From Corynebacterium glucuronolyticum DSM 44120 (GTDB lineage Bacteria; Actinomycetota; Actinomycetes; Mycobacteriales; Mycobacteriaceae), in contig NZ_CP047452.1 of assembly GCF_030440595.1 (NCBI RefSeq), positions 2,604,001-2,668,000 on the forward strand: DNA of 64,000 nucleotides. The letters run 5' to 3'. Shown here piece by piece: positions 10,866 to 27,203 of this stretch; the stretch's first letter is position 1, and the number at the start of each line of letters is the position of its first letter. The notes below the pieces were generated by a model that searched no databases, had not been told where the DNA came from, and worked only from the letters and a program-made list of their open reading frames with translations. Position numbers and translations under genes: made by a program.

Positions 10866-12566
10866 ATGACACGCAACCAAGGCCTACAGGAACGTCGGGA
10901 CGTTCTACTCACACAGGTTGACCAGATCCTGGACTCCGCGAGCATGGGGCGTGTGCAGAAAACCACGGAGACGCAGGATGTCAACTTCAAAGAAGAGGCC
11001 GGTCGTAGGAACGGGCCCAACATAGAGCCGGGTAAGAAACAGAACACTGAGGCTGCCAACAAGCTTGCCGACGAGGTTGCATGCATGGCAAATACGCCTG
11101 GCGGTGGTGCGCTTATTGTTGGCATTGAGGGTAAGTCTGGGACGATCATCGGCACGGAGCTAGACATCGATTGGCTCCGGCAAAACATCTACACCCGGAT
11201 CGATGTTGCACCGGATATTTCCGCGCGGACGGTTGCCGGGCAAAGGGTTCTCGTCATTCTCGTTGCTGCGGCACGCGAACCCATTCCCAACACCAGCGGT
11301 GCGCTTCGCTGGCGCGTTGGCGACTCGTGTCGCCCAGTGGACCGAGCCGAATGGTGGGACTACCAGCGCCGACAGTCAGGTTTCGATCCGATGGCGCAGG
11401 AAACTACCTTGACGGTTAAAGACGTTCGGCATGGTGCGCTTGCCATCGCACGCAAGCAACAGGATTACTTCCAGGAACTCTGCGGCGAGGAGATCCTCCG
11501 CGGTATCGGTGCTATCAACGCTACGGGGCATCTCACGGAGGCAGGCAGGAACGTGTTCACCTCAGCAGGGCGGACACTTATCGAGCTGACCATTTTCGAT
11601 GTGCCAGGAGGAAACGTGGTCAACCGCGTCTCGGGCGAACCAGAGTTCTCCGCACTTGAGCAGTTGGAGCAGATGGAAAGTGCGCTGCGCGTAGTTAACG
11701 GAAACAACACCGTGATCGAAGGGTTAGCGCACCGATCGGTTCCGCAGGTTCCACACAGTGCGGTGCGCGAATCCATGCTCAACGCCATGATTCACAGGGA
11801 TTGGAACCGCACAGAGATTATCGAGGTCCGCTGGTACGCTGTGGATTCCACACTCGAGGTTCGCAGCCCTGGCGGATTCATGCCGGCGATCACGACGTAC
11901 AACGTCTTGAGCAACCGGGCTGCCCGCTACCCGGCTCTCGCGGATCTGTATCGGGCGATCGGCTTTGTGGATAAACAGGGTGTAGGTGTGGATCGCATGT
12001 ACCAGTCCATGATTGTGCTCGGACACAGGCCTCCGATATTTGAGGAAGTTGAGGGGCCATTCATCTCCGTCACGTTGAAAGGTGGCAAGCCGGTTCTTCC
12101 GGTGATGCAGCTCGTCTCTGCAATTGTTCCAGAACCTCGGCAACGCGACTACCGCATCGCGATCATTTTGTACCTGCTGCTGAACCGACCTTTCGTGACT
12201 GTAAAGACGGTGGCACAGGAACTGCAGACGAGCGAAGAATCAGCACAGATTGCCATCGAAGCGGCAACCCAGACGACCGTCGGCGGTGAACCGATCATCG
12301 CACCGCACGGCCCGACCTGGTTTTTGGGGGAATCGGCCCGCACGATCTTGGAGAAGGTGCCTGAGTACCTCACCACAGAACCGGAGGTACTCCGCGGGGT
12401 AGCGGATCTGTGGTTTGAGGAGATCGGCGATCTACGCACCGCAGACCTAGTAGCGCTCTGCGGCATTTCGCGTTCGACAGCCAAATCGTTTATCGATTCC
12501 CTCCTCAGCGAGGGCAGCATAACTGCCATCGGTGGCGGTAGGTCGACGCGTTACCGCAAAGCGTAA
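10866..12566 (+). CDS. AlbA_2-domain putative regulator / ATP-binding protein
   Basis: A 566-residue protein. The N-terminal part holds a Schlafen-type AlbA_2 domain (about 35-150: TQDVNFKEEAGRR, GGGALIVGIEG). A GHKL-like ATP-binding C-terminal module follows (about 300-390: VRESMLNAMIHRDWNRTEI, LEVRSPGGF, KQGVGVDRMY). The last 150 residues look like winged-helix DNA-binding units (LRTADLVALCGISRSTAKSF). The ATG has an AAGGAG site. Direct repeats upstream and an inverted repeat downstream share one core sequence, suggesting it binds its own locus. It stands alone between aftD and tmaT. AlbA_2 proteins are also found in antiphage contexts; no activity can be assigned here. Confidence 0.8.
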   Translation: MTRNQGLQERRDVLLTQVDQILDSASMGRVQKTTETQDVNFKEEAGRRNGPNIEPGKKQNTEAANKLADEVACMANTPGGGALIVGIEGKSGTIIGTELDIDWLRQNIYTRIDVAPDISARTVAGQRVLVILVAAAREPIPNTSGALRWRVGDSCRPVDRAEWWDYQRRQSGFDPMAQETTLTVKDVRHGALAIARKQQDYFQELCGEEILRGIGAINATGHLTEAGRNVFTSAGRTLIELTIFDVPGGNVVNRVSGEPEFSALEQLEQMESALRVVNGNNTVIEGLAHRSVPQVPHSAVRESMLNAMIHRDWNRTEIIEVRWYAVDSTLEVRSPGGFMPAITTYNVLSNRAARYPALADLYRAIGFVDKQGVGVDRMYQSMIVLGHRPPIFEEVEGPFISVTLKGGKPVLPVMQLVSAIVPEPRQRDYRIAIILYLLLNRPFVTVKTVAQELQTSEESAQIAIEAATQTTVGGEPIIAPHGPTWFLGESARTILEKVPEYLTTEPEVLRGVADLWFEEIGDLRTADLVALCGISRSTAKSFIDSLLSEGSITAIGGGRSTRYRKA

Positions 12567-14127: not shown

Positions 14128-14769
14128 TTGGTTAGGAATCTGTTCATCGGCGTCGGCGCGGCGCTGCTCGTTCTGCTGTGGCTGCTGCAGAGCCTCATCA
14201 CCCCAACCATGGCTAACTACCAGGCGCAACTCGTGGGCGATGGGCAGACGCGAACCGTGTCGGTGGTGCGCCACGGCAAGACCGTCACCGCCACCGACGT
14301 GTACACGGGACACCTGGACCGCGACGTCTCCGGCACCTATCTCATCGACCCGAAGTCCGGCTTCCCCGCCAAGAAGGCGACGCACACGGGACTGACCTAC
14401 TACTTCCCCATGCCGACGGAGGAACGCTCCTACGTCATCTACGATCCGCTCACCGGCGATGCCGACACCGTGGACTACGTGGACCCGGAGCAGCGCGACG
14501 GGATGAAGCTGTACGTGTTCAGGGAAAACACGCCCCGCCTGCGGGAGGTGACGATAGAGCCGCATTCGGGAATCGTCGTGGACGCGCGGGAGGATGTCGA
14601 CGGCACGGTGATCGCGTTCGACGAGGCGACGCGTACTGACGCGCTGGCGCGAGCTGAGGCCGCCTACCGGCAGCACCGTTCCCTAGAGGTTGCCCGCTTC
14701 CTGCTCACCGTCGCCGGCGGCGGGTGCATCATCGTTGGGCTGTGGCTATGGACAAAACGCGTGTTGTAA
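14128..14769 (+). CDS. DUF3068 (PorA-family) membrane-anchored protein
   Basis: A 213-residue protein with one membrane segment at each end (about 4-25 and 188-208) and an extracytoplasmic middle region rich in Asp and Thr, the plan of DUF3068 proteins found across mycolate-bearing actinobacteria. The start is TTG at 14128, preceded by GGGAG seven bases upstream. It overlaps the next gene by 22 bases, implying coupled translation. The function is not known; the neighbourhood suggests envelope glycolipid handling. Confidence 0.82.
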   Translation: MVRNLFIGVGAALLVLLWLLQSLITPTMANYQAQLVGDGQTRTVSVVRHGKTVTATDVYTGHLDRDVSGTYLIDPKSGFPAKKATHTGLTYYFPMPTEERSYVIYDPLTGDADTVDYVDPEQRDGMKLYVFRENTPRLREVTIEPHSGIVVDAREDVDGTVIAFDEATRTDALARAEAAYRQHRSLEVARFLLTVAGGGCIIVGLWLWTKRVL

Positions 14770-16013
14770 TCCGCGTCGCTGCGGCCACGTTCCTCATCGG
14801 CTGCGCATTGTGGTTTTTGGTGTTCCCCGGTGTGCTTGTGCACCGCGACATGGTCATCGTGGATACTCCTGCGCTGTCCGCCTGGAATTTTGGCACCGCG
14901 CCAGGCCACGCCGCCCGCAACGCCCCGCAGGATGGTTTCCTCGCGCTTGCTGGTCTCCTTCTCCCCGCGAGTTGGGTCGCACGCCTCATCCTCGTGGGGT
15001 CAGCGGTGGGCGGGTGCATCGCGTCTTGTCGCTTCGCACAAGGCGCCATAAACGAGGTGGCGGCCATGGCCGTGCTCCTATGGAACCCCTTCGTGGTGGA
15101 GCGACTCCTCCAGGGGCACTGGACGGTCGTCGCCGCGTTTTGGCTGTTACCGCTGGTGGCGTCTCTCAAAAACCGGCCCGGGTTTCAAGCAATCACCATG
15201 TGGGCGACATCTCTCACACCGACGGGCGCGATCGCGGGTGCTGCTGTGGGCATCGCCACCGGGCGCAAGAAAATCATGGTGCCCGTCGCCGTGGCCATGA
15301 GCGTGCCCTGGCTCGTCCCCTCCCTCCTCCACCGCCCCGTCGCCGCCGCCACGGACGTCTTCCGGCCGAGCTCCCTCTGGGAACTCGTCGGGCTCGGCGG
15401 CATCTGGAACGCGCAGGCCACGCCACACATCTACCTCCCGCTCGCAGGCATCGCCCTCCTCGCCTTCCTCCTTCCTGCGCTTCCTCGCGCCGACCGCTCC
15501 CTCCTCGTCCTCGCCGGAGTGGGCTTCGCCCTCGCCACCGCATCCCTCCTCCCCTTGGGCGACCTCTACGCCACCATCCCCGGCGCGGGGCTCCTCCGCG
15601 ACGGCCAAAAGTGGCTGCTCCTCGCCTCCCCCGCCCTGTGTCAGCTCGCCGGAAATGTCCGCTGGCCAGCGCTTGTCATCGCGCTCACGATCCTCCAGGT
15701 CCCCTCCCTTCCCCAGGATGTCGCGGCACTGCGCCCCGTCCCCGAGGACGCCTCCTGGTACGAGGCCACCGCCCCCGTCCCCACCATGACGCTTGTCGAC
15801 GGCCACCCGGCACTCAATCCGGCACTGAAAGCATCCCCCATCCCACCCTCGGGGGAGCTCGTCGTCGACGGAGTCGCCGTTGAGAAGGCCCCCGACGCCC
15901 CACCACCCAGCCAGGCAGATTGGGCCCTCGGCCTAGGACTCACCCTGTGGTGGATGGCTTTACCTGCGGTAATTATGGCGTTCTACAGGCGACCATCGGA
16001 CCCGGGGCACTGA
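14748..16013 (+). CDS. Polytopic membrane protein of the mycolate locus, intact copy
   Basis: A 421-residue hydrophobic protein with about ten membrane segments and no cytoplasmic domain. ATG 14748 (MDKTRVVIRVA) is preferred to an upstream ATG because it gives a positively charged N-terminus directly before the first membrane segment. An early acidic pair (VLVHRDMVIVD) and a large loop could suit a polyprenyl-phosphate-dependent GT-C enzyme, but no family signature is certain. It is translated from within the end of the DUF3068 gene. A second, decayed copy lies at 22.1-23.3 kb, so this is the functional one. Confidence 0.75.
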   Translation: MDKTRVVIRVAAATFLIGCALWFLVFPGVLVHRDMVIVDTPALSAWNFGTAPGHAARNAPQDGFLALAGLLLPASWVARLILVGSAVGGCIASCRFAQGAINEVAAMAVLLWNPFVVERLLQGHWTVVAAFWLLPLVASLKNRPGFQAITMWATSLTPTGAIAGAAVGIATGRKKIMVPVAVAMSVPWLVPSLLHRPVAAATDVFRPSSLWELVGLGGIWNAQATPHIYLPLAGIALLAFLLPALPRADRSLLVLAGVGFALATASLLPLGDLYATIPGAGLLRDGQKWLLLASPALCQLAGNVRWPALVIALTILQVPSLPQDVAALRPVPEDASWYEATAPVPTMTLVDGHPALNPALKASPIPPSGELVVDGVAVEKAPDAPPPSQADWALGLGLTLWWMALPAVIMAFYRRPSDPGH

Positions 16014-16172
16014 TGCTTCTCGGGGAGGGCGTGACATTTTATGGGCATCTGTTACATAGCAGATGTGACCACCTGGGGTACATGGTTTGCTACATTCACA
16101 GACACCCACAAACTGTCAGGATGCCAATTTGAAAGCAACTTTTCGCGAGCATCAAGCTTGTAACCCCACTCA
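16014..16172. other. Intergenic junction at the left edge of the island
   Basis: About 160 bases between the membrane-protein gene and the first glycosyltransferase fragment. It contains a small inverted repeat, CATCTG/CAGATG, near 16043-16062. No coding frame is supported. Confidence 0.4.
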
Positions 16173-16540
16173 CTAGGAAACGATCCGCCGCAATAACTCT
16201 TCCCAGGCTTTACCCGTCGCCTCCCAGGAGAACTGCGAGGCGAATCCTCGTGCATTGCGCCCCAGCTCCGCACGCTTTTCTTTGTTCGCGCGAAGCTCAT
16301 CGAGGGCGCTAAACAGATGGGCTTTATCATCGACAAGCACACCGGTGCGACCGTGACGAACCGAATCGGTGAGCCCCGAACGTGCGGTAGCCGACCGCCG
16401 GGACAGAGGGAAGGACGTGGATGCCGGCGCTGGAAAGCAGCTCATTCTTGCGCCCTTCTGACAATTGACCATGGAAGATAACCTGCGACTCGACGCCGAG
16501 TTCCCGGGCGTAGGCGCGCAGGTTCGCCCCAGTGAACAAG
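16173..16540 (-). pseudogene. Glycosyltransferase family 4 fragment 1 (degraded 3' end)
   Basis: The minus strand encodes recognisable pieces of the C-terminal half of the glycosyltransferase at 24.6-25.6 kb: NLRAYARELGVESQVIFHGQ, then a jump from IHVLPS to VPAVGYRT that loses about 15 residues, then a frame change before the ending SVRHGRTGVLVDDKAHLFSA and FSWEATGKAWEELL. The wording is closer to fragments 2 and 3 than to the intact gene. It ends abruptly against the stop of the NYN gene. It cannot make a working enzyme. Confidence 0.85.
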
Positions 16541-16542
16541 AA

Positions 16543-17310
16543 TCAGAGCTCTTCCTCGTCATCGTCTGCCAAATTGGCCTTACCAAAATTAGTGGCATGC
16601 AGAGGATCCTCTAAATTCTTCGGCTTATCAGCCACGCACTCACGTATGCCATCGATATGCTCACTCAAGCTCTCAGTGATATTTGCCCACATCGGATCCA
16701 AAATAAAATCGATTCCCGAGCGTCTGGCATGCTTAGCAGCCGGAACAAAATCACTATCGCCTGATATCATAATTATCTGGTTAACTAACTTTCGTTCAGC
16801 CAGAGCTGCGATATCAAGACCTATTCTCATATCTACGCCTTTTTGAGATATGGCTAGATAAAAGTCGTCCTCGGTTAGATCATCGATTCCGATCTTCTTT
16901 CGACAAAGCTTTTTAAGCGGGGCATCTTTAAGAACATAGCCACCTTGAGATTCAAGGGGCTCACCTCGCCGTATCGCAACCTTCCGCTTTTTTGCCAAAG
17001 CAGAAAAGAAGGAATTGGTCCAGCTGAATTGCTCGGACCGCCCCAGGTTAATCTGTCTCTGAAGTAAGGGGTGATAAACAACCTTGTCCGAAGGTGGACA
17101 GTCGTAGTAGAAAATCCGATAAAGTCCCGCTTTCGATTCCCGAATATGCCGGTGACAATACTTTACAAGCTCAGTTGCGCGGTCCTCTGCAGATTTGTGC
17201 CCGAAAAGAACGGAGGCACGCTTCCTATAGAATCCCCCATCGACCAGGATTGCCGTTGTAATTTGCCGAAGTGGAATCTGTTGCCTGCTATTTCGATGTT
17301 TGCTACGCAT
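16543..17310 (-). CDS. NYN-domain ribonuclease-like protein
   Basis: A 255-residue protein with the acidic residues of the NYN (PIN-like) nuclease fold: AILVDGGFYRKRA at about 20-32, KGVDMRIGLDIAALAE in the middle, and MISGDSDFVPAAKHARRSG. The ending is acidic. The start ATG has an AGGAGG site five bases upstream. The segment is less GC-rich than the core genes and is bracketed by glycosyltransferase fragments 1 and 2, so it is cargo of the island. NYN proteins cleave RNA in several settings, including defence and RNA decay; the substrate here is unknown. A long hairpin lies in its leader. Confidence 0.8.
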   Translation of the reverse strand: MRSKHRNSRQQIPLRQITTAILVDGGFYRKRASVLFGHKSAEDRATELVKYCHRHIRESKAGLYRIFYYDCPPSDKVVYHPLLQRQINLGRSEQFSWTNSFFSALAKKRKVAIRRGEPLESQGGYVLKDAPLKKLCRKKIGIDDLTEDDFYLAISQKGVDMRIGLDIAALAERKLVNQIIMISGDSDFVPAAKHARRSGIDFILDPMWANITESLSEHIDGIRECVADKPKNLEDPLHATNFGKANLADDDEEEL

Positions 17311-17330
17311 TACGCCTCCTGGAAAGAGGT

Positions 17331-17382
17331 AACCCCAGTCATCGGCACTCTCCCTATCAGCGGAGGGTCAACGGCTGGGGTT
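17331..17382 (-). other. Leader hairpin upstream of the NYN gene
   Basis: AACCCCAG at 17331-17338 pairs with CTGGGGTT at 17375-17382, enclosing 36 bases that can form a smaller inner stem (CCCTCC/GGAGGG-like). It lies 20-72 bases before the NYN start on the same strand. It may be a structured leader or the end of another transcript; no T run follows. Confidence 0.4.
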
Positions 17383-17591
17383 GATGAATTAGATACTAAC
17401 CAACCGTCACGGATCAGTCAAGGAAGAAAGTGGGACAGAATACATACGCTATATTCTGACCTCGCTCTCACTACGACTAAGCAAAAAATACCACAGTAAG
17501 TAGACTCAGGCCGGTCTCCGGAATTGTGGCATAGATCCATGAAGGTACATTCACCCAGTTTTTAAGTGCTAGGCGAACTCAAGAGGTTCCC

Positions 17592-18143
17592 TTATTTGCT
17601 CGTGAGACCGATCCGCCGCAGTAGCTCTTCCCACTTCTCACCTGTTGATTCCCAGGAGAATTGCGAGGCGAATTCTCGTGCATTGCGCCCCAGATCCGCA
17701 CGCTTTTCTTGGTTCGCGCGAAGCTCATCGAGGGCGCTAAACAGGTGGGCTTTATCCTCGACAAGCACACCAGTGCGACCGTGACGGACCGAATCGGTCA
17801 GCCCGCCCGACGTGCGGTAGCCAACCGTCGGGACGGAGTGAAGGGCGGCTTCGATGACCGCGAGGCCCCACCCCTCCTTGACGGAGGGGAGGACGTGGAT
17901 GACAGCGCGGGAAAGCAGCTCATTCTTACGCGCTTCCGACACCTGACCATGGAAGATAACCTGCGACTCGACGCCAAGCTCCCGGGCGTAGGCGCGCAGA
18001 TTCGCGTCCCACCAGCCGGAGCCGATGACGTCGAGGCGGGCGTCGGGACGCGCGGCAAGATAATCAAGAACGTGCTCGATGCGCATGTGAGGAACGAGCT
18101 GCGACAGAGTGACCAAATGATCCGAATGATTGTTCGACACCAT
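17592..18143 (-). pseudogene. Glycosyltransferase family 4 fragment 2 (C-terminal half)
   Basis: An open frame of about 183 residues equal to the C-terminal half of the intact glycosyltransferase: HSDHLVTLSQLVPHMRIEHV, GSGWWDANLRAYARELGVES, the nucleotide-sugar binding region SVKEGWGLAVIEAALHSVPT and the end FSWESTGEKWEELLRRI. The N-terminal acceptor domain is missing, so it is a truncated gene although the retained part is open. It begins just after the microcin exporter gene. It resembles fragments 1 and 3 more than the intact gene. Confidence 0.88.
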
Positions 18144-18191
18144 CGAAAGGTTGGCGAATCGATATTGCCTGGACGCCTGCTGAATACTTAG

Positions 18192-19433
18192 CTACTTTTG
18201 ACTCGTGGCTAAGCTCCTCACTCCTCTACGCACCCAAAGCCAAAGCAAAGACAGAATTAGAAGGACGGTAAAGCCTGTGCCAACAACTTGAGACGGGGAA
18301 TAGACCCGAATTGGTATCGCCGAAACCAACAGCACGACAATTGCGCCGACCCTACTACTGAGACTGACAAGTGAAGTGACAGCTCCGATCCTTGCAACTG
18401 AAGCCGACTTGCGAATTCCGACAACACAGTAGTTTCCCACTAGGGTTAATACAAACACCAGCGTACAATACGCCAGCAAATACCATAAATTCGGAAGTAC
18501 GATAACCAGCCCGGAACATGCAAAGAAGATAGCAGCAAGGCTCCAAAAAAGGGCCCGGTGAACAAAAAGAAATTCGACAGGTATCATAGATGCCATTAAA
18601 GACATTGCAATAAAAACCAAGTATAGAAAAAGCAAATACTTTTCTTGTACTCCCTTTTCCAAAGCCGTCGCCTGCCAAAGCTGAAAGTGTAGCTGCATAA
18701 AGGCTTGAATCAGAACCGCCAAGGAAAGATAATTCTTAAGTTGCGGAGACTCCTTCAATTCACTAAGTGTCTCCCCTACGTGCTCCTTTAGCTGACTAAT
18801 TAGCCCTCCAGAGGCTTTGCCTTGTGTATTATACTGCTCCGGGATCTTGAAGAATACTATAATTGAAAAGACAGCAACTAAAGCCGAAAGTACCGAAATG
18901 TAATATATATTTACACCGATCTGTAGGTACGAAAAAGCGCCTACACTACTGCCAATCATCATCCCTAAGAAGTTGCTTTGTTTTTCTCTCCTTACCAACC
19001 ACGAAAGGCGCTTTTCAAGATCTTGTTTTCCATCCGATGCCTGCGCTTTTGCATTGTTTACCAAAGCAGCATCAAGCGTGCCGGAATCTAATGCGCTTGC
19101 TACTCCGTAAAGTCCCCATGCAATGGAAAGGACTAGGAATCCAGAGCCATGCACGACCAGCAGGAAATACAAGACCAACAGGAGGCGAGAAGAGAGGTAA
19201 ATATACCTTCTACTGATCATGTCCGCCAATGCACCGCTCGGCAGCTCGAAAGAAAGTACCGCCAGGCTATAAATAGCCTGCATTGTCAAAATTTGGGATA
19301 AGGTCAATCCTTTAGAGAACAAAATTGGCGTTAGGATCGCATGCGGAATTGAAAGGGCTAGCCCTGTCAAAATTTGCGCAAGGAAATAAGGGTTCGCGGG
19401 TTCTTTAAGATCGCCGATGCGCAGCTTCGCCAT
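18192..19433 (-). CDS. mccC: MFS exporter of the microcin C-like operon
   Basis: A 413-residue, 12-segment major facilitator protein with the loop motif GALADMISRR. Its ATG at 19433 follows the mccB stop by one base and has GGAGAG upstream inside mccB, so the two are translationally coupled; a frame starting earlier would overlap mccB. In microcin C systems MccC is an MFS pump that exports the peptide-nucleotide and so gives the producer immunity. No second immunity gene (MccE acetyltransferase or MccF peptidase) is visible nearby, so this pump may be the sole protection. The DNA is AT-rich compared with flanking genes. Confidence 0.85.
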   Translation of the reverse strand: MAKLRIGDLKEPANPYFLAQILTGLALSIPHAILTPILFSKGLTLSQILTMQAIYSLAVLSFELPSGALADMISRRYIYLSSRLLLVLYFLLVVHGSGFLVLSIAWGLYGVASALDSGTLDAALVNNAKAQASDGKQDLEKRLSWLVRREKQSNFLGMMIGSSVGAFSYLQIGVNIYYISVLSALVAVFSIIVFFKIPEQYNTQGKASGGLISQLKEHVGETLSELKESPQLKNYLSLAVLIQAFMQLHFQLWQATALEKGVQEKYLLFLYLVFIAMSLMASMIPVEFLFVHRALFWSLAAIFFACSGLVIVLPNLWYLLAYCTLVFVLTLVGNYCVVGIRKSASVARIGAVTSLVSLSSRVGAIVVLLVSAIPIRVYSPSQVVGTGFTVLLILSLLWLWVRRGVRSLATSQK

Positions 19434-19434
19434 T

Positions 19435-20478
19435 TTATCTCTCCAAAAAGCCACACACTGCGCACATAGGATCCCGATTCAAAGAGATTTCCACGCGATT
19501 AAAAGTCGGATTGACCAAACCAATTCGCTTATTTAGAGAAACAACGCGGTTCAAATCGCCACTCCAGAAATTAAACAAATCGGAAACCGCCATAGCCCCT
19601 GCAAAAGAATTATTTACCATACACGACGGCGCTTCGTAGGCATCAAAGAACGCACTAAGACTGTCATGCGCAGTGCCAGCCTCTATGCCTAATCGATTCC
19701 CACAGAACGGGCAGGCATCGTTCTTCGACGTCCAAAATGGTCCGATGATCGAGATATCGTTGAGATACCCCACATTTAAGAATGGAACACCGGCCTTCAT
19801 GAGACTTGGACAGATTGATTTTAAGATGCCCCGACTATCAGCGGAAATAATTGCAACAGCGGACCCGCCGATTTGTTCCAGAATTTGCTCAATACTTTCG
19901 CGACTTACATATTCGCTGATGCACGTTATATTGAGCTCAGGGCGTAGCTCGTTCAGGCGCTCTTTGAGGACACTAGCTTTGGAAAAACCGAGGTCTTTCC
20001 TGGAAAAGAGGAACTGCCGGTTTAAATTGCTTTCCTCCACTATGTCACCATCGACGAGAACTATGTTGCTCACCGGTGACGATGCGAGACTATACGCAAC
20101 CTGATTCCCAATACCACCGCACCCAAGGATTAACACTGTTGTACTCTGTGCAGCTTCTTCCACCTTTTTCGAATCCAAAGGTAAAGACTCGATATACAAT
20201 TTTGTCTTATATGTGACGTCTTGTGAATTGAAATTCGTCGTGTCCACGTCCGAAATTACGCCTGATTGCAGCAGGTCTTCATACGCTCCCTTTAATTCAG
20301 GTATTTCACTGAAAGAATGTTCCGGCACTCGAACACCCCTGCGTTCTGCCATTTCTTTCAGAATCGCTAAATAAAGATCTTTCCGATCGTTTGGTACGAT
20401 CACCTGCCTGCTGCCGATTCCGAGAAAAATTTTATCTGAAGCTTCAAGAATTTTTCCCGTAGCGGAAATAGAACACAT
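19435..20478 (-). CDS. mccB: MccB-type ThiF-family adenylyltransferase
   Basis: A 347-residue E1-like enzyme expected to use ATP to convert the C-terminal Asn of a short peptide into a nucleotide-linked isoasparagine. The nucleotide loop LILGCGGIGNQVA is at about 116-128, the E1-type acidic/Arg segment EESNLNRQFLFS follows, and two zinc Cys pairs are at CPFCGN and CAVCGF. The stretches NVGYLNDISIIGPF and SLNKRIG closely match what I remember of E. coli MccB, more than MoeB or ThiF. ATG 20478 is chosen for its GAAAGA site; a longer TTG frame would run through the intercistronic hairpin. Length matches MccB (about 350). Confidence 0.9.
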   Translation of the reverse strand: MCSISATGKILEASDKIFLGIGSRQVIVPNDRKDLYLAILKEMAERRGVRVPEHSFSEIPELKGAYEDLLQSGVISDVDTTNFNSQDVTYKTKLYIESLPLDSKKVEEAAQSTTVLILGCGGIGNQVAYSLASSPVSNIVLVDGDIVEESNLNRQFLFSRKDLGFSKASVLKERLNELRPELNITCISEYVSRESIEQILEQIGGSAVAIISADSRGILKSICPSLMKAGVPFLNVGYLNDISIIGPFWTSKNDACPFCGNRLGIEAGTAHDSLSAFFDAYEAPSCMVNNSFAGAMAVSDLFNFWSGDLNRVVSLNKRIGLVNPTFNRVEISLNRDPMCAVCGFLER

Positions 20479-20500
20479 TTTTATTGATCTTTCACATAAC

Positions 20501-20527
20501 CCTGTTGGGGACAACGCCGCCAACAGG
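20501..20527 (-). terminator. Hairpin between mccA and mccB
   Basis: CCTGTTGG and CCAACAGG form a perfect 8-bp stem with an 11-base loop, 15 bases after the mccA stop on the minus strand. No long T run follows, so termination would be partial. In the E. coli microcin C operon a hairpin at the same place keeps mccA transcript in excess over mccBC; the arrangement here suggests the same role. Confidence 0.65.
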
Positions 20528-20541
20528 TATCTTCTACGTTC

Positions 20542-20565
20542 TTAGTTTGAAAGTCCGCCGAACAT
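20542..20565 (-). CDS. mccA: Microcin C-like precursor heptapeptide MFGGLSN
   Basis: Seven codons, ATG TTC GGC GGA CTT TCA AAC, then TAA. The peptide has the two features that define MccA: it is a heptapeptide starting with Met and ending in Asn, the residue that MccB modifies (E. coli MccA is MRTGNAN). AAGAGG lies five bases before the ATG, a good ribosome binding site in an AT-rich leader. A possible -10 (TATAAA) lies about 30 bases upstream on the same strand. It is followed by a hairpin, then mccB and mccC. So short a frame could arise by chance, but the site, length, last residue and gene order together make it convincing. Confidence 0.85.
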   Translation of the reverse strand: MFGGLSN

Positions 20566-20800
20566 GACTACCTCTTTTTACTCAAATCGATTTTTATACG
20601 TTGCAATCTACTCTTGGTAGTTTTTTTTGTCATTGTGTTTTAGGTCTTTATTGTTCACTGTTCTAAAACGCGTTTCATGTCTCAAGCTGTTTTGACTTGA
20701 TTAAAAAGAGTAATCAAAGTGGAAAACATGTCCCACGCAAGCAGAACGGCGTAAGGAATACAACAACAAGAAACCAGAACTGAACAGCATTTGGTTGTTA
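20566..20800 (-). promoter_or_regulatory. AT-rich upstream region of the microcin operon
   Basis: About 235 bases with low GC and no coding frame. On the minus strand TATAAA lies near 20598-20593, and a short dyad CTACCAAGAGTAG lies 10-20 bases before it. This is the likely promoter region of mccABC; the exact -35 is not clear. The region ends at glycosyltransferase fragment 3. Confidence 0.45.
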
Positions 20801-20801
20801 C

Positions 20802-21156
20802 TTACAAAGATTTCAGTAACTCTTCCCACTCCTCACCTGTTGCTTCCCAGGAGAACTGCGAGGCGAATTCTCGTGCATTGCGCCCCAGCTCCGCGCGCTT
20901 TTCTTGGTTCGCGCGAAGCTCATCGAGGGCGCTAAACAGGTGGGCTTTATCCTCGACAAGCACACCGGTACGACCGTGACGAACCGAATCGGTCAGCCCA
21001 CCCGACGTGCGGTAGCCAACTGTTGGGACGGAGTGAAGGGCGGCTTCGATGACCGCGAGGCCCCACCCCTCCTTGACGGAGGGGAGGACGTGGATGACAG
21101 CGCGGGAAAGCAGCTCATTCTTACGCGCTTCCGACACCTGACCATGGAAGATAACC
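20802..21156 (-). pseudogene. Glycosyltransferase family 4 fragment 3, cut by an ISL3-family end
   Basis: The minus strand encodes VIFHGQVSEARKNELLS through FSWEATGEEWEELLKSL, the last 115 or so residues of the glycosyltransferase. Upstream homology stops exactly where the ISL3-type terminal sequence begins at 21157. The retained sequence is almost the same as the matching part of fragment 2. Confidence 0.87.
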
Positions 21157-21889
21157 GGCTCTTCCGGTTTTAGAGTGCGTTGATTTTGTTGGTGAGGCCT
21201 CCGGAGTGGATGAGGCACCGCAAGATGTAGTGGTTGAGGCTTTTAAATCCGAGGGCGATGCCGCGGAGGTGTTCGAGGCGTCCGTTGATTGCTTCGACTG
21301 GCCCGTTGGATACACCCCGGTCGAAAAACGGGAGGACATCCCGGCGCCGCTTATGAAGGCTGCGTCCTAGTTGGGCTATCTCCTTATGCGCCTTGCCTTT
21401 CATGACACGCAGTTGGTCGATCAGGTGGCTCATTGCCTTTTTGGCTTGCCGTCGGTTTTTCATCTCGTAGGCGTCGATAACACGCTGATAAACCAGGTAG
21501 GCCTGATATAGCGGCTGGTAGTCCTCATCGAATGCCCACAGGTCATCCAAACGCGCATTTTGCCCATCAGTTAAAAGGCTATCCCTGGTCAACAATGTTT
21601 TACGGTTTTTATACAACGGATCCCCACGACGCCCTCGTCTACCGGTGGTTTCTATTTGTAGCCTCTGGCGACATTTTGTCACCTTGTCGCTTGCCAAACG
21701 CACCACATGGAAGGGATCCATGACACGAGTTGCCTTCGGTACCGCAGCTTCAGCAGCACTGGCGTAGCCGGCAAACCCATCCATGGACACAACCTCAATG
21801 CGATCCCGGAAGCTGTGGTCACGCTGGTTTAACCAGGACTGTAACGGACACACAAAATGGCCAACCCACACGACACGCCGAAAAGACAC
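21157..21889 (-). mobile_element. ISL3-family insertion sequence remnant (IS31831/IS1207-like)
   Basis: The left boundary GGCTCTTCCGGTTTTAGAGTG resembles the terminal repeat of corynebacterial IS31831/IS1207 elements. The minus strand then encodes about 220 residues of the transposase C-terminal part, with IEVVSMDGFAGY, VMDPFHVVRLASDKV, and the DDE-type end GPVEAINGRLEHLRGIALGF. The N-terminal third and the other terminal repeat are missing; sequence homology fades near 21840-21890. The element is dead. Confidence 0.85.
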
Positions 21890-22126
21890 ACGTTTTGGCG
21901 CTTAACCCTACTACGCCGAATATGAACACCGCCGACGAAAGCTCAAGAAAGAACACGATGGGTTTTGGCAAAAACAAGAGCCGCCCACTTGGTGAACGGC
22001 TCCAGATACTCCTTCAACACCTGGTTGATGAGCTGCCCTGATCCTAGCATCAAAATCCAAAAGGATGTTAGTGATTTAGGCAACAGTAATGTCTTACGTT
22101 AGAAAAACACCTATACCCATGGAGCG
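21890..22126. other. Scrambled junction sequence after the ISL3 remnant
   Basis: On the minus strand about 30 residues read sensibly (LINQVLKEYLEPFTKWAALV) before frames close, so this may be a scrap of another gene or of the element. I cannot name it. No other feature is visible. Confidence 0.35.
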
Positions 22127-23337
22127 TTGAGCATTTTAAACTTCGCCCAGTGGTTCCTCTTTCTCCCCGGCGTGCTCGTCCACCGTGACATGGTGGTGGT
22201 GGATCATCCGGCGCTCTCGGCATGGAACTTCGGCACCGCGCCGGGGGTCGCCGCCCGCAACGCCCCGCAGGACGGGGTGCTCGCACTGGTGGGCCTCGTT
22301 TCCCCGCCTCGTGGCTCGCCCGGTTCATCCTTGTGGCCTCCGCGATCGCTGGTTGCGTAGCTGCTACAAAGAATGCAAAAAGCCTCACCGGCTAGGTGGC
22401 CGCCATGGCGGTTCTCGTGTGGAATCCGTTTGTGGTTGAGCGGCTGCTCCAGGGGCACTGGACTGTGGTGGCGGCGTTTTGGCTGCTCCCGCTCGTGGCC
22501 TACCTTGGCCGCCGACCCGGCACGCAGGCCATCGCCATGTGGGCCGCCTCGCTCACGCCCACTGGCGCCATCGCCGCCGCCGCGACGGGCCTTGTCACCA
22601 GCACCAACCGGCGCTTCACGGCGCTATTTTCCTTAGGCATGAGCTTGCCGTGGCTCGTGCCGTCGCTTATCCACCGGCCTGTGGGTTCTGCCACCGACGT
22701 GTTCCGCCCGAGTTCCGTGCTCGAGCTCGTGGGCCTTGGTGGCATGTGGAACAGCGAGGTCACGCCCGGAATCTACGTTCCGCTCGCGGGTATCGCCCTC
22801 GCTGCCTTCCTGCTCACTGCCCGCGCCGAGAAAAAGCTCCTCGCCTTGGCAGCGGTGGGGTTCGCCCTCGCCCTGGTGTCCCTCCTCCCACTCGGCGGGC
22901 TGTACGCCACCGTGCCTGGATTGGGACTCCTCCGCGACGGCCAAAAGTGGCTGCTGCTTACCTCCCCCGCGCTCACCCAGCTGGCAGGAAGCGTCCGCTG
23001 GTCGGCCGTCGCCATCGCGTTTGCGGTGCTGCAGGTCCCCTGCCTCCCCGCCGACGTTGGGACGCTTCAGCCCGTGGCCGAGCAGCACTCCTGGTACACC
23101 GCCACGGCCTCGGTTGACACGATGACGCTTATCGACGGCCACCCCGCGCTCAACCCGGCCCTCAAGGCTTCGTCCATCCCGCCGTCCGGTGAGCTCGTGG
23201 TTAGCGGAGAAACGGCAGAGGAAGCCGCCCCCGCGCCACCGCCCGCGCGGGCCGACTGGTGGCTAGGGTTAGGACTTACCGGCTGGTGGATCTGCCTCGG
23301 CACGGCAGTGGCTTCGCTCAGAAAGCCGTCACGCTGA
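22127..23337 (+). pseudogene. Decayed second copy of the polytopic membrane protein
   Basis: The translation follows the intact gene at 14.7-16.0 kb: LPGVLVHRDMVVVDHPALSA, NFGTAPGVAARNAPQDG, then a frame change near 22308 (SWLARFILVASAIAG continues in another frame), then an in-frame TAG at 22393-22395, and then an open frame from 22396 (VAAMAVLVWNPFVVERLLQG onward, about 313 residues) to 23337. The first 20 or so codons are also missing. The open 3' part could in principle be translated from GTG 22396, but the protein would lack its first membrane segments. Confidence 0.88.
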
Positions 23338-23388
23338 CGTGTTATTGCGATAAAATCACAGGTAGTGATTCTTTGGAGCGAGGTTTTC

Positions 23389-24603
23389 ATGAGCTACACC
23401 AAGATCGGCTACATCGTTTTGGCAATCTTTTTTGTGCCGTTGCTTGTTATTCTCGGTTTTGCGTTTCTCACCGATGCCACAGATGACTACGCCACGCGAA
23501 ACGAATCGAGTGCTACTATTCCACTCCTTCCGGATAGCGTTGCAGTGTTTGGATCTGCCTCTTCCGCCAGCGACACGTCAGCGTCCAATATTTGGTTTCA
23601 GACCAACAGTGATGGACAGTTTCGCACCGAGCTCACCGACCCGGTGTACAACCCAGTGTTCACCCGTCTTGACCGGAATCGCTTTGGAATAATGAGGGGC
23701 AAGGAGCTACTCGTAAGAGACATAGAGACGGTCACCACCACGACACTTTCCGGCACAGTTGATACGAATGGAATGATGCACGGTGCTACGTCAGATGACG
23801 GCAGCGAGGCCCTGTTGGTGAGTTATTCGGGCGGGGTGGGAACTAGCTACACTTTGACCGATGGAACCCGGCTGAAATCGCAGTATATTCCCCACACGGG
23901 ATTCGGCCCCGCCGTGTCAAACGATGGATACGCGCTCGATATTTCTGTGGCAAATGACGAGGACTCTCGAGTAATTTGTACAAATTCTTTCTCTTACCTT
24001 CACGATCTATCCCAGGATTGCATTGACCTGCCCGGCGAACGTCGGGCAAGTTTTCCGATGGTCTCCTTCCACCGTGGTACCCCGGAGCTCTTCCTCCAAT
24101 GGAATACCGATAGCGAGCAAGGCTGGAGCCTCTACCGCCTTGAGGCTAGTGGCTGGACGCTGACAAATGACCAATCAACGTGGGATTACGATAGTTCTAC
24201 CTACAGCGTAGTCACAAACTATTTCACCAGAGACGGAAAGATCTACTTTATAACCTCAAAGAAGCGCGGCATCGTCAGCTTTCCCTTCCCCACCACAGAC
24301 ACCACCGAAATACACATGGATTACCACGATGTGAGCGATCTCATCCCCGGCGATCTCGTTTCCGTAACGTTTGACGGCCCGATAGCTAACTACGTGTTCT
24401 ACCGGGACGACAACGTTGGGGCAGGACAGTACCTCACCTCCGTAAACATTGATGATCCGACGAAGCACGTCGGCCCTTGGTTGATCCCCAGAGAATTGCT
24501 GAAGGGAACCGGCTACTACTCGTTCCAAGCCATCGATTCCATTTTCCTCAACGACGATGCCACGCTCATCTCGTTAGGAATTGATCCCACCACGTTCAAG
24601 TAG
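23389..24603 (+). CDS. Membrane-anchored extracytoplasmic protein, unknown function
   Basis: A 404-residue protein with one N-terminal membrane segment (about 8-28, IGYIVLAIFFVPLLVILGFAF) and a long outside region rich in Ser, Thr, Asp and Tyr with repeating short beta-like units, which may form a propeller. ATG 23389 is chosen for the GGAGCGAGG site. The 3' end overlaps the convergent glycosyltransferase gene by 30 bases, so the two have been neighbours for long and this gene is probably part of the native mycolate locus, not cargo. I do not recognise a family. Confidence 0.7.
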   Translation: MSYTKIGYIVLAIFFVPLLVILGFAFLTDATDDYATRNESSATIPLLPDSVAVFGSASSASDTSASNIWFQTNSDGQFRTELTDPVYNPVFTRLDRNRFGIMRGKELLVRDIETVTTTTLSGTVDTNGMMHGATSDDGSEALLVSYSGGVGTSYTLTDGTRLKSQYIPHTGFGPAVSNDGYALDISVANDEDSRVICTNSFSYLHDLSQDCIDLPGERRASFPMVSFHRGTPELFLQWNTDSEQGWSLYRLEASGWTLTNDQSTWDYDSSTYSVVTNYFTRDGKIYFITSKKRGIVSFPFPTTDTTEIHMDYHDVSDLIPGDLVSVTFDGPIANYVFYRDDNVGAGQYLTSVNIDDPTKHVGPWLIPRELLKGTGYYSFQAIDSIFLNDDATLISLGIDPTTFK

Positions 24604-25647
24604 CAACCCTTCCCACTTCTTACCGGTGGCATCCCAGGAAAACTGGGCCGCAAAAGACCGCGCGTTAGCGCCGAGTTCCGCCCGCAGGTCGGGGTTGGCG
24701 CGCAGGGTGTCGATGGCGGAAAAGAAGTGCGATTTATCGTCGACAAGCAAACCGGTGGAACCGTTGCGAATAGAATCGGTGAGCCCTCCGGCCCGTGTGT
24801 AACCGACGGTGGGGACGCCGTGCAGGCCTGCCTCGATGACGGCGAGCCCCCAGCCCTCTTTGACGCTCGGCATGACGTGGATGCCGGCCCGGTCTAAAAG
24901 CTCCCCTTTGCGGTCCTCTGTGACCTGGCCATGGAAGATGACCTGGCTTTCCACCCCCAGCTCACGGGCGTAGGAACGGAGCTTTGGGTCCCACCAGCCG
25001 GAACCGATGACGTCGAGGCGGGCGTCGGGGCGCGCGGCAAGATAATCAAGAACGTGCTCGATGCGCTTGTGCGGGACGAGGCGGGAGAGGGTGACCAAAC
25101 GATCCGAATGCCTGTTCGATCGAGGGGCTAGTGCGGGCCCACCGTTGTGGATGACGCGGATGTCCTTCTCCCGTACCCCCAGCCGCACGAGCTCTCGCTT
25201 GGAGGATTCCGATACCGTCACGTACGGCGCGCCCCGGTACACGCGCGGTGCCACGCGGGATTCCAGGAACCACCCGAGCCTGCCGAGCAGCGGGCCCGCG
25301 ACTGGCCACTGTTCCCTGTGACAGTGGTGCGTGAGGAGGACCGTCGAGCGCGGGTGCGTAAGACGCGCGAAGAACGGAATGCCGTTTTGGGTGTCCACCA
25401 CCGCATCGTAGTGGTGCGTCGCCGCGTGGAGGAGACCCGCGATGTAGACCGTCATCTTCCCGCCGTGACGAATGTGCTTCACGCCCTTTTTGGTGGAGTG
25501 GGCGGGCATCCCCTTCGCGCGGGCGGAGAAGTACGTCACCGAATGCCCGCGCGCGGCCAGGTAGGCGCCGACGTGCTCAAGGTAGCGCTCGGAGCCGCCA
25601 CCTTGGGGGTGGTCGGTGTCGCGCCAGCACAGCAGGAGGATCTTCAT
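24574..25647 (-). CDS. Glycosyltransferase family 4, intact copy
   Basis: A 357-residue cytoplasmic retaining glycosyltransferase with two Rossmann-like domains. N-terminal: MKILLLCWRDTDHPQGGGSERYLEHV, the glycine-rich acceptor loop. C-terminal: VTLSRLVPHKRIEHVLDYLA and SVKEGWGLAVIEAGLHGVPT, with the E-x7-E type donor-sugar motif. ATG 25647 is chosen because the longer frame upstream only translates a 23-bp tandem repeat. Three truncated relatives of this gene lie at 16.2, 17.6 and 20.8 kb. Donor and acceptor are unknown; context suggests an envelope glycolipid. Confidence 0.88.
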   Translation of the reverse strand: MKILLLCWRDTDHPQGGGSERYLEHVGAYLAARGHSVTYFSARAKGMPAHSTKKGVKHIRHGGKMTVYIAGLLHAATHHYDAVVDTQNGIPFFARLTHPRSTVLLTHHCHREQWPVAGPLLGRLGWFLESRVAPRVYRGAPYVTVSESSKRELVRLGVREKDIRVIHNGGPALAPRSNRHSDRLVTLSRLVPHKRIEHVLDYLAARPDARLDVIGSGWWDPKLRSYARELGVESQVIFHGQVTEDRKGELLDRAGIHVMPSVKEGWGLAVIEAGLHGVPTVGYTRAGGLTDSIRNGSTGLLVDDKSHFFSAIDTLRANPDLRAELGANARSFAAQFSWDATGKKWEGLLLERGGINS

Positions 25648-25901: not shown

Positions 25902-27203
25902 ATGTCATCACTTTCCGGAGAAGTCCCACGGCATACTCGCAGTCTCGCGCGTGAAATCCTTTCGGACACGCCACTCCTTGTTGTGCAAGGAGCTCGCCAG
26001 GTAGGCAAATCAACGCTTCTTCGTCAGGTACTTAGCCCAGATGATTCCGTTTTTGTGACGTTAGACGACCCGACTACACGTCGATTCGCGGAAGAAGATC
26101 CCGTGCAGTTTCTTCGACAGGCACCAGGAAAGACTCTTGCCATCGACGAGGCTCAACGTGTCCCAGATTTAGCACTCGCGCTCAAGCTTGTCATAGATGA
26201 ACAGCGAATCCCCGGCGCGTACGCGATCACAGGTTCAGCCGATTTGTTAAGACTCAAAGGAACGGGCGACTCCCTCGCTGGTCGAGCCAGTTCGCTCACC
26301 GTGCGACCGCTTAGCCAAGGCGAAATTAGCCAGAGGAGCGATCCGGAAGACTTCATTTCATGGGTTGCGAATGGCTGCGCGGGGAATCTAGATAGCTCCG
26401 CTTCCCCAAGTGACATACGAGAGAGAGTAACTGCGGGTGGTTACCCAGAGCCGCTCAAACGGTCAACTTTCCGGGCACGTAGCCGCTGGTTTAGAGACTA
26501 CGTTGACCAGCTACTTCGGCATGATGTACCGCAGCTTGCTGGCGAAAGCAGTCAAATGTTGCACTCCTTCGAGCCGCTCATTCGACTACTCGCTTCTCAA
26601 GGAGAATCTGAATTAGTAGTTGCGCGCTTGGCTGAGCGTCTTGGAATAGTCGGTTCTACGCTGCGCATGTACCTTGACACGCTGGACACGATGTTCCTGA
26701 CGGAAACCCTGCCTTCATGGGGCCGGGGCTACAGCGGTCGCGTTGTCCGACGCCCCAAACTGTCGCTTGTGGACACCGGTTTAGGAAGCAGTCTCACCGG
26801 CTTTACGCCCGAGGCTTCACACCAGGCCGACGGGTTTGAATTCTTCGGCGCACAGCTAGAGGCTTTCGTTTCCTCCGAACTCAAGAAGCAACAGACCTGG
26901 TCAGAAACCATTTACCGGCTCTATCACTATAGGCAGAGAAACGATGAGGTAGACATCGTGGTTGAGCTGCAGGACGGGTCGGTCATCCTGATCGAAGTGA
27001 AATCTACCTCCCAGGTGCGTCGCGATTCGTGGACCTCCTTGCGGCGCATCAGTGAAAAACTTGGCACCCGTGTTCGCGCCAGCGTCGTTTTATACACGGG
27101 CAAAAAGGGCTACTGCATCGACGAATCGCGTTCTCTCTATGTTCTACCAGTGGGACTCTTGTGGGAGCACGCGAGTATACCCACCCCGTTCCCTTCACAG
27201 TAA
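25902..27203 (+). CDS. AAA-type ATPase with DUF4143 domain
   Basis: A 433-residue protein. Walker A is GARQVGKST near residue 32, Walker B is LAIDEAQRV near 80, and a sensor-like TGSADLLRL follows. The C-terminal DUF4143 part contains DEVDIVVELQDGSVILIEVKST, which has the E-x-K pattern of PD-(D/E)XK nuclease-like folds. Such ATPases are common single-gene accessory modules; the physiological role is not established. RBS AAGGTG precedes the ATG. The four-unit 23-bp array lies about 80 bases upstream and may regulate it. Confidence 0.85.
   Translation: MSSLSGEVPRHTRSLAREILSDTPLLVVQGARQVGKSTLLRQVLSPDDSVFVTLDDPTTRRFAEEDPVQFLRQAPGKTLAIDEAQRVPDLALALKLVIDEQRIPGAYAITGSADLLRLKGTGDSLAGRASSLTVRPLSQGEISQRSDPEDFISWVANGCAGNLDSSASPSDIRERVTAGGYPEPLKRSTFRARSRWFRDYVDQLLRHDVPQLAGESSQMLHSFEPLIRLLASQGESELVVARLAERLGIVGSTLRMYLDTLDTMFLTETLPSWGRGYSGRVVRRPKLSLVDTGLGSSLTGFTPEASHQADGFEFFGAQLEAFVSSELKKQQTWSETIYRLYHYRQRNDEVDIVVELQDGSVILIEVKSTSQVRRDSWTSLRRISEKLGTRVRASVVLYTGKKGYCIDESRSLYVLPVGLLWEHASIPTPFPSQ

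Follow-up and report, generated by a model that had tools for sequence, protein, structure and literature searches.

The stretch of Corynebacterium glucuronolyticum DSM 44120 analysed here, a window of 64,000 nucleotides (contig NZ_CP047452.1, positions 2,604,001 to 2,668,000), carries on its minus strand a compact gene set, very probably a minimal microcin C-type operon of three genes (mccA, mccB and mccC), with a predicted antibiotic product. Read directly, the order is a ribosome-binding site AAGAGG (20571-20576), where GAGGT fits the complement of the anti-Shine-Dalgarno (anti-SD) sequence; the seven-codon precursor gene mccA (20542-20565); an intergenic hairpin (20501-20527); mccB (19435-20478), for a ThiF-fold protein of 347 residues classed as a peptide adenylyltransferase with an N-terminal peptide-clamp domain; and mccC (18192-19433), for a protein of 413 residues of the major facilitator superfamily (MFS), which starts one base past mccB. 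All three reading frames are intact. An original prediction, made from the letters of the sequence, had proposed a 24-base minus-strand gene for MFGGLSN with AAGAGG five bases upstream, followed by a hairpin, a ThiF protein and an MFS protein; direct reading returned the gene at 20565-20542, the ribosome site at 20576-20571 and the same order of elements. The gene content and the membership of the microcin C family are well supported, and relatives show the three genes in this order too, with an MccB and a heptapeptide behind a ribosome site. The operon is a further example of the known microcin C type, from a genus in which we found none described: the full-text literature searched yielded no Corynebacterium microcin C, and the word Corynebacteri- is absent from the main texts of PMC6495379, PMC12250964, PMC7157772 and PMC6429109, a result that leaves aside Table S1 of PMC6495379 and does not establish absence from print.

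The precursor gene and the intergenic hairpin

The mccA gene reads ATGTTCGGCGGACTTTCAAACTAA and encodes MFGGLSN followed by a stop (ATG to TAA). The window contains 39 ATG-started frames of seven residues in 128,000 positions on both strands, two of which end in Asn, and MFGGLSN is the sole Asn-ended one with a ribosome-site match, defined as at least four bases of AAGGAGGTGATC located 3-12 bases ahead of the start. Passages of PMC6495379 describe mcc precursor genes as having seven (rarely eight) codons near mccB, an N-terminal Met, a C-terminal Asn and a strong SD sequence. MFGGLSN behind AAGAGG is such a gene: short, started by Met, ended by Asn and preceded by a strong SD sequence.

The same kind of frame was sought in the 500 bp upstream of mccB (ATG frames of 3-60 codons with an Asn end and a ribosome site) in 21 related loci, made up of the 16 best MccB matches (L005-L020, E 5e-101 to 3e-26), two plasmid records and three viral contigs. 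The 16 are the best MccB-like loci of 80 kept from 148 found, L021-L084 lying outside the scan. One qualifying frame each was present in the window and in 17 of the 21 loci, every one of exactly seven codons, and both known precursors present, MKLSYRN of Helicobacter pylori and MRTGNAN of Escherichia coli, were retrieved. The background in the same loci amounted to seven such heptapeptides in 400,292 positions, six of them from the pair L088/L089. Since 17 were observed where 0.184 would be expected by chance in the 21 regions, the heptapeptide gene is not a chance frame. The loci are not independent, as L009/L010, L017/L018 and L088/L089 share peptides, which leaves 15 distinct heptapeptides including that of the window.

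Gly occupies position 3 in nine of these 15, the window's among them (binomial P 1.4e-7 at 7% Gly, under an assumption of independence that is not fully true). Passages of PMC12250964 identify position 3 (Thr) and Asn7 as the sites where changes impair the action of E. coli MccB most. Given the frequency of Gly3 and the importance of position 3 for the E. coli enzyme, this MccB clade may recognise its precursors by a pattern M-x-G-x-x-x-N; Zukher 2019 (PMC6495379), in its passages on precursors, restricts universal conservation to Met and Asn.

Between mccA and mccB lies a hairpin of 27 nt, CCTGTTGG...CCAACAGG (20527-20501). The 35-nt stretch 20496-20530, picked after the hairpin had been seen, has a minimum free energy (MFE) of -15.7 and a z-score of -3.12. 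Folding of the 60 nt that follow the mccA stop in 14 relatives, one from each same-peptide pair, gave z-scores of -2.3 or lower for 10 of the 14 and of -1.5 for L012. The two Corynebacterium hairpins, that of the window and that of strain NML130628 (see below), differ in sequence and start at a similar distance, 13-15 nt past the mccA stop. Passages of PMC6495379 place a terminator between mccA and mccB in E. coli, where ribosome binding to mccA induces termination. By analogy, the hairpin of the window may act like that terminator, as a possible attenuator or processing signal, and would probably end much of the transcription after mccA, leaving more mccA than mccBC RNA, as happens in E. coli. 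A search of 18000-21000 against Rfam, down to matches of E 1, came back empty.

The predicted adenylyltransferase and the likely exporter

All the motifs that had been read in the ThiF-fold protein were located in its frame (20478-19435): GCGGIGN (from residue 119), NLNRQ (151), GYLNDI (237), SLNKRIG (314) and two CxxC pairs, CPFC (256-259) and CAVC (339-342). The best PDB sequence match of this protein is E. coli MccB (E 3e-33), which exceeds ThiF, MoeB and Cap2 by at least 50 bits, and the predicted fold matches MccB over its whole length, N-terminal peptide-binding domain included. According to passages of PMC12250964, MccB consists of an N-terminal peptide-clamp domain of about 90 residues and a C-terminal part; the protein of the window possesses this clamp domain. 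An assignment to PaaA (5ff5) was rejected, PaaA ranking under MccB both by sequence (E 1.2e-10 against 3e-33) and by Foldseek.

The phylogenetic position of the protein was addressed in trees that took in 31 of 120 listed proteins (the best 120 of 232 found) and a chosen subset of loci. In the unrooted tree, a branch with support 100/100 sets four MoeB/ThiF rows apart from the MccB rows that come with a heptapeptide gene, 13 in all with that of the window. This separation had been set beforehand as the point on which the MccB assignment would turn, and the protein fell with MccB, which the PDB and the fold comparison also rank first. On PDB sequence, predicted fold and tree position, the ThiF-fold protein is thus classed as MccB. 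The heptapeptide label requires one change on the 65-row tree and two on an earlier tree of 70 rows, which contained a misread frame from the same genome (L002, terminal branch 8.4) and some fragments; the extra change is perhaps due to the misread L002 row. The 65-row tree was built without L002, L016, L020, L078 and L080, while L003 was re-read and kept as own_L003f. L016 and L020, both with heptapeptides, lay inside the MccB clade in the 70-row tree, and L124 (Vibrio, unannotated) was assigned to the MoeB/ThiF group after joining Klebsiella MoeB there.

The product of mccC belongs to Pfam MFS_1 and is likely the exporter. In tblastn searches with this protein, a homologue was found directly behind mccB in 17 of the 21 related loci; L015, L020, L087 (E. 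coli) and L090 yielded none. Its best match among described exporters is the annotated MccC of H. pylori P12 (37% identical).

The locus had been likened to E. coli mccA-mccB-mccC. In gene order and heptapeptide length the likeness holds; the closest described layout is instead the three-gene mccABC of H. pylori, not the six-gene E. coli cluster. On the H. pylori P12 plasmid (CP001218.1), a 24-bp mccA, mccB and mccC are annotated as such in the same order, and just A, B and C are likewise found in the stretch seen. Its MccA, MKLSYRN, is an Asn-ended heptapeptide with a ribosome site and a hairpin behind it (z -3.17), and its MccB is 32.6% identical to that of the window. The H. pylori operon differs in being plasmid-borne, in belonging to another phylum and in its peptide (Leu3, Arg6). 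The E. coli microcin C7 cluster mccABCDE/mccF (NC_010257.1) shares the order mccA (MRTGNAN), hairpin, mccB and MFS-type mccC, with an MccB 28% identical, and has in addition methyltransferase, GNAT and S66 peptidase genes, which passages of PMC6495379 name mccD, mccE and mccF and none of which lies beside the operon of the window.

The nearest case within the genus is Corynebacterium sp. NML130628 (NZ_MLAL01000015.1, L005), with an SD sequence, the ATG-started heptapeptide MLGRVFN, a strong hairpin, an MccB 45% identical and, matched over 33 residues at 64% identity, the beginning of an MccC homologue. Like that of the window it is poor in G+C (44% in surroundings of 62%), and it differs in its peptide and its genomic place. 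No printed description of it was found in the full-text literature search.

A number of points weigh against the assignment of the locus to the microcin C kind. The MccB of the window is just 24-28% identical to the E. coli enzyme, which stands in a neighbouring group of five rows, outside the 34-row clade of the window's protein. The MFS protein scores 226 bits with the NCBIfam model for HP1165-family MFS, under the cutoff of 700, and E. coli MccC is unmatched by tblastn (E ≤ 1e-3) to this exporter. The mccC frame of NML130628 (L005 7029-7301) runs for about 40 residues before it meets a stop, close to where the contig ends, through decay or an assembly edge. The hairpin of the window has no T-run, the 60 nt after the mccA stop give a z of -1.69, marginal in this unbiased test, and three of the 14 relatives (L011, L019 and L088) have z about zero or above, with no hairpin beyond chance. 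Four of the 21 related loci have no qualifying ATG heptapeptide within 500 bp: L006 (Bifidobacterium), L007 (Streptobacillus), L014 (Cetobacterium, with about 470 bp available) and L090. The last of these falls with MoeB/ThiF in the tree, and L007 has a GTG-started frame of eight codons, MIFTVVKN, behind aagaggtga. Finally, passages of PMC12250964 state that E. coli MccB requires Thr at position 3 of the precursor, where MFGGLSN has Gly.

Proposed product, target and self-protection

From analogy with known microcin C systems we infer adenylation, export, uptake and an aspartyl-tRNA synthetase (AspRS) target. The formyl-Met heptapeptide MFGGLSN would bind the N-terminal clamp of MccB, which would convert the C-terminal Asn into an isoasparaginyl phosphoramidate at the cost of two ATP, the nucleotide joined to the peptide being likely adenosine monophosphate (AMP). 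The product would leave the producer through MccC, and enter a target cell by a peptide importer; peptidases would then trim it down to an aspartamide nucleotide, which would block AspRS.

That cytidine monophosphate (CMP) takes the place of AMP is unlikely, even if passages of PMC12250964 report that E. coli MccB accepts several nucleoside triphosphates in vitro. Both compounds cited for CMP bear a carboxymethyl group, and the operon has no further gene able to add one. The nearest described architecture, H. pylori mccABC, likewise has a heptapeptide precursor, and its product is adenylated.

We consider it quite unlikely that the operon is real and modifies its heptapeptide, yet makes a product with another role than that of an antibiotic (a signal, or a compound that finds no target among neighbours) or remains silent. 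The rarity of mccB in the genus (2 of 242 Corynebacterium genomes at E ≤ 1e-20, this one counted) would suit such a state, as would the failure of the S66, S51 and HIT profile searches to recognise a dedicated immunity gene, and the promoter scan of the region, for which no promoter is claimed, found promoter-like sites at a level modestly above that of shuffled sequence (8 against a mean of 3.8, standard deviation 2.0). On the other hand, all three frames are intact, MccB homologues 97% and 92% identical occur in other sequence sets, and in E. coli, according to passages of PMC6495379, the product acts as an antibiotic directed at AspRS.

Finally, it is highly improbable that the small frame arose by chance beside a ThiF protein with a housekeeping ThiF/MoeB role or an E1-like role in a defence system: Pfam assigns it just to ThiF, the best of the 25 NCBIfam matches listed are ThiF/MoeB models (each under its own cutoff) and PADLOC E1-E2 models match its nucleotide-binding part (best E 1e-16), but the PDB margin, the whole-length fold match and the 100/100 branch described above led us to reject both the ThiF/MoeB and the defence-type E1 assignments, the heptapeptide exceeds chance expectation, and the genome has two further ThiF-fold matches elsewhere, one of them a 444-residue frame with an end that is rhodanese-like by eye, as in MoeZ.

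How a producer of the predicted microcin C would protect itself was approached through the immunity genes. The original claim that neither MccE nor MccF is encoded stands for MccF throughout the genome, where Pfam S66 (PF02016) gave no match at E ≤ 0.001 in a search whose control was positive in 6 of 14 genomes, and for MccE in the surroundings of the operon, the region searched for mccD and mccE, where neither was found behind mccC; there follow a glycosyltransferase repeat and then an NYN gene. No S51 protein in the genome passes the family cutoff (one match, 19.7 against 23.9 bits). HIT proteins act as self-immunity enzymes of mcc operons in the systems covered by passages of PMC7157772. 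Two in this genome exceed the cutoff, about 0.25 and 1.0 Mb from the operon, and are at best general enzymes; no HIT gene lies beside the operon itself. A search for AspRS returned one protein over the cutoff and two weak pieces within one other frame of 527 residues, perhaps another class II synthetase. Because no MccF-type gene occurs in the genome and no MccE/HIT enzyme beside the operon, protection would rest on export, perhaps together with general phosphoramidases.

If the assignment to microcin C is true, a gene of seven codons, far under the usual size limit of gene callers, yields a tRNA-synthetase-directed antibiotic in Corynebacterium, for which the papers searched gave no such compound, and the operon offers a clean case for studying survival of a producer that lacks both MccF and an adjacent MccE/HIT enzyme. 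Passages of PMC6495379 indicate that in E. coli the peptide part is recognised for uptake; a peptide selected for corynebacterial entry could accordingly serve as a lead for bringing synthetase inhibitors through a mycolic-acid envelope. Rather speculatively, corynebacteria might own a branch of microcin C in which a three-gene M-x-G-x-x-x-N weapon crosses the mycomembrane of rival corynebacteria, is kept as an exchangeable cassette flanked by near-identical glycosyltransferase repeats and is tolerated without an immunity enzyme.

Genomic setting and related loci

The operon had been described as AT-rich, bounded by glycosyltransferase fragments and acquired. The first two features are borne out, with a G+C content of 45.4% in 18192-20565 against 60.8% in the window without 16000-21500, and with a glycosyltransferase 3′ end repeated in direct orientation on the minus strand, once upstream (20814-21159) and once downstream (17619-17964) of the operon, the copies being 96.2% identical over 346 bp and 3,195 bp apart. 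Horizontal acquisition of the operon is likely on these grounds, and one crossover between the 96% repeats would excise it whole. The C-terminal part of an ISL3-family transposase (21170-21889, minus strand; NCBIfam transpos_ISL3 positions 164-370 of 370, Pfam DDE_Tnp_ISL3) adjoins the upstream repeat.

The glycosyltransferase end recurs twice more, at 16181-16527 and 24609-25119, with identities of 78% and 76%. The four direct copies bracket three unrelated cargo stretches, namely an NYN-domain gene, mccABC, and the ISL3 remnant with two genes lacking a Pfam match, and the region 16181-25119 looks like a recombination platform. A second direct duplication, of a hydrophobic-protein gene (14724-16013 and 22141-23337, 72-75% identical, about 7.34 kb apart), encloses the operon region; neither copy matched Pfam.

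Operons of this kind were also met outside Corynebacterium. In a class scan, an MccB-like gene at E ≤ 1e-40 was found in 8 of 394 genomes drawn, seven of them (L129-L135, other actinomycetes) besides the present one. All seven have NLTRQ where the MccB of the window has NLNRQ, and an Asn-ended heptapeptide with a ribosome site was found in one of the seven: in L131, from a different actinomycete family, AGGAGG and MLKLGGN (reverse strand 1365) precede an NLTRQ-type MccB-like gene by about 130 bp, and MLKLGGN is likely a further precursor. A 12-codon frame was seen in L129. Unlike in the window, a HIT gene stands behind the MccB-like gene in L132 and L133 (by Pfam) and in L135 (by eye), where Pfam run on the end alone of the HIT-like frame gave no match; this placement resembles that of the HIT self-immunity enzymes already described.

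Upstream of mccB in Bifidobacterium ruminantium (L006 5868-5990), a frame that starts with MRLSAKN follows a strong ribosome site and has no stop there; it could be a longer or a decayed precursor. In Borreliella contigs (L016-L018), homologues of mccB and mccC accompany the heptapeptides MLGKNFN and MLGKKFN. Among the three loci on viral contigs, two, the IMG/VR contigs L088 and L089, have mccA (MHVTPSN), mccB and an mccC homologue, and a comparison of 3.5 kb shows them to be 95% identical. Phages may thus carry microcin C operons, or the operons may belong to flanking host DNA.

Farther along the window, 25902-27203 encodes an AAA_14/DUF4143 protein matching the PADLOC candidate defence family PDC-S01 (448 bits), and 10866-12566 a putative regulator of 566 residues (SLFN_AlbA_2 / DUF5635 / DIP2311-like) with weak matches to SIR2-Argonaute-associated PADLOC models.

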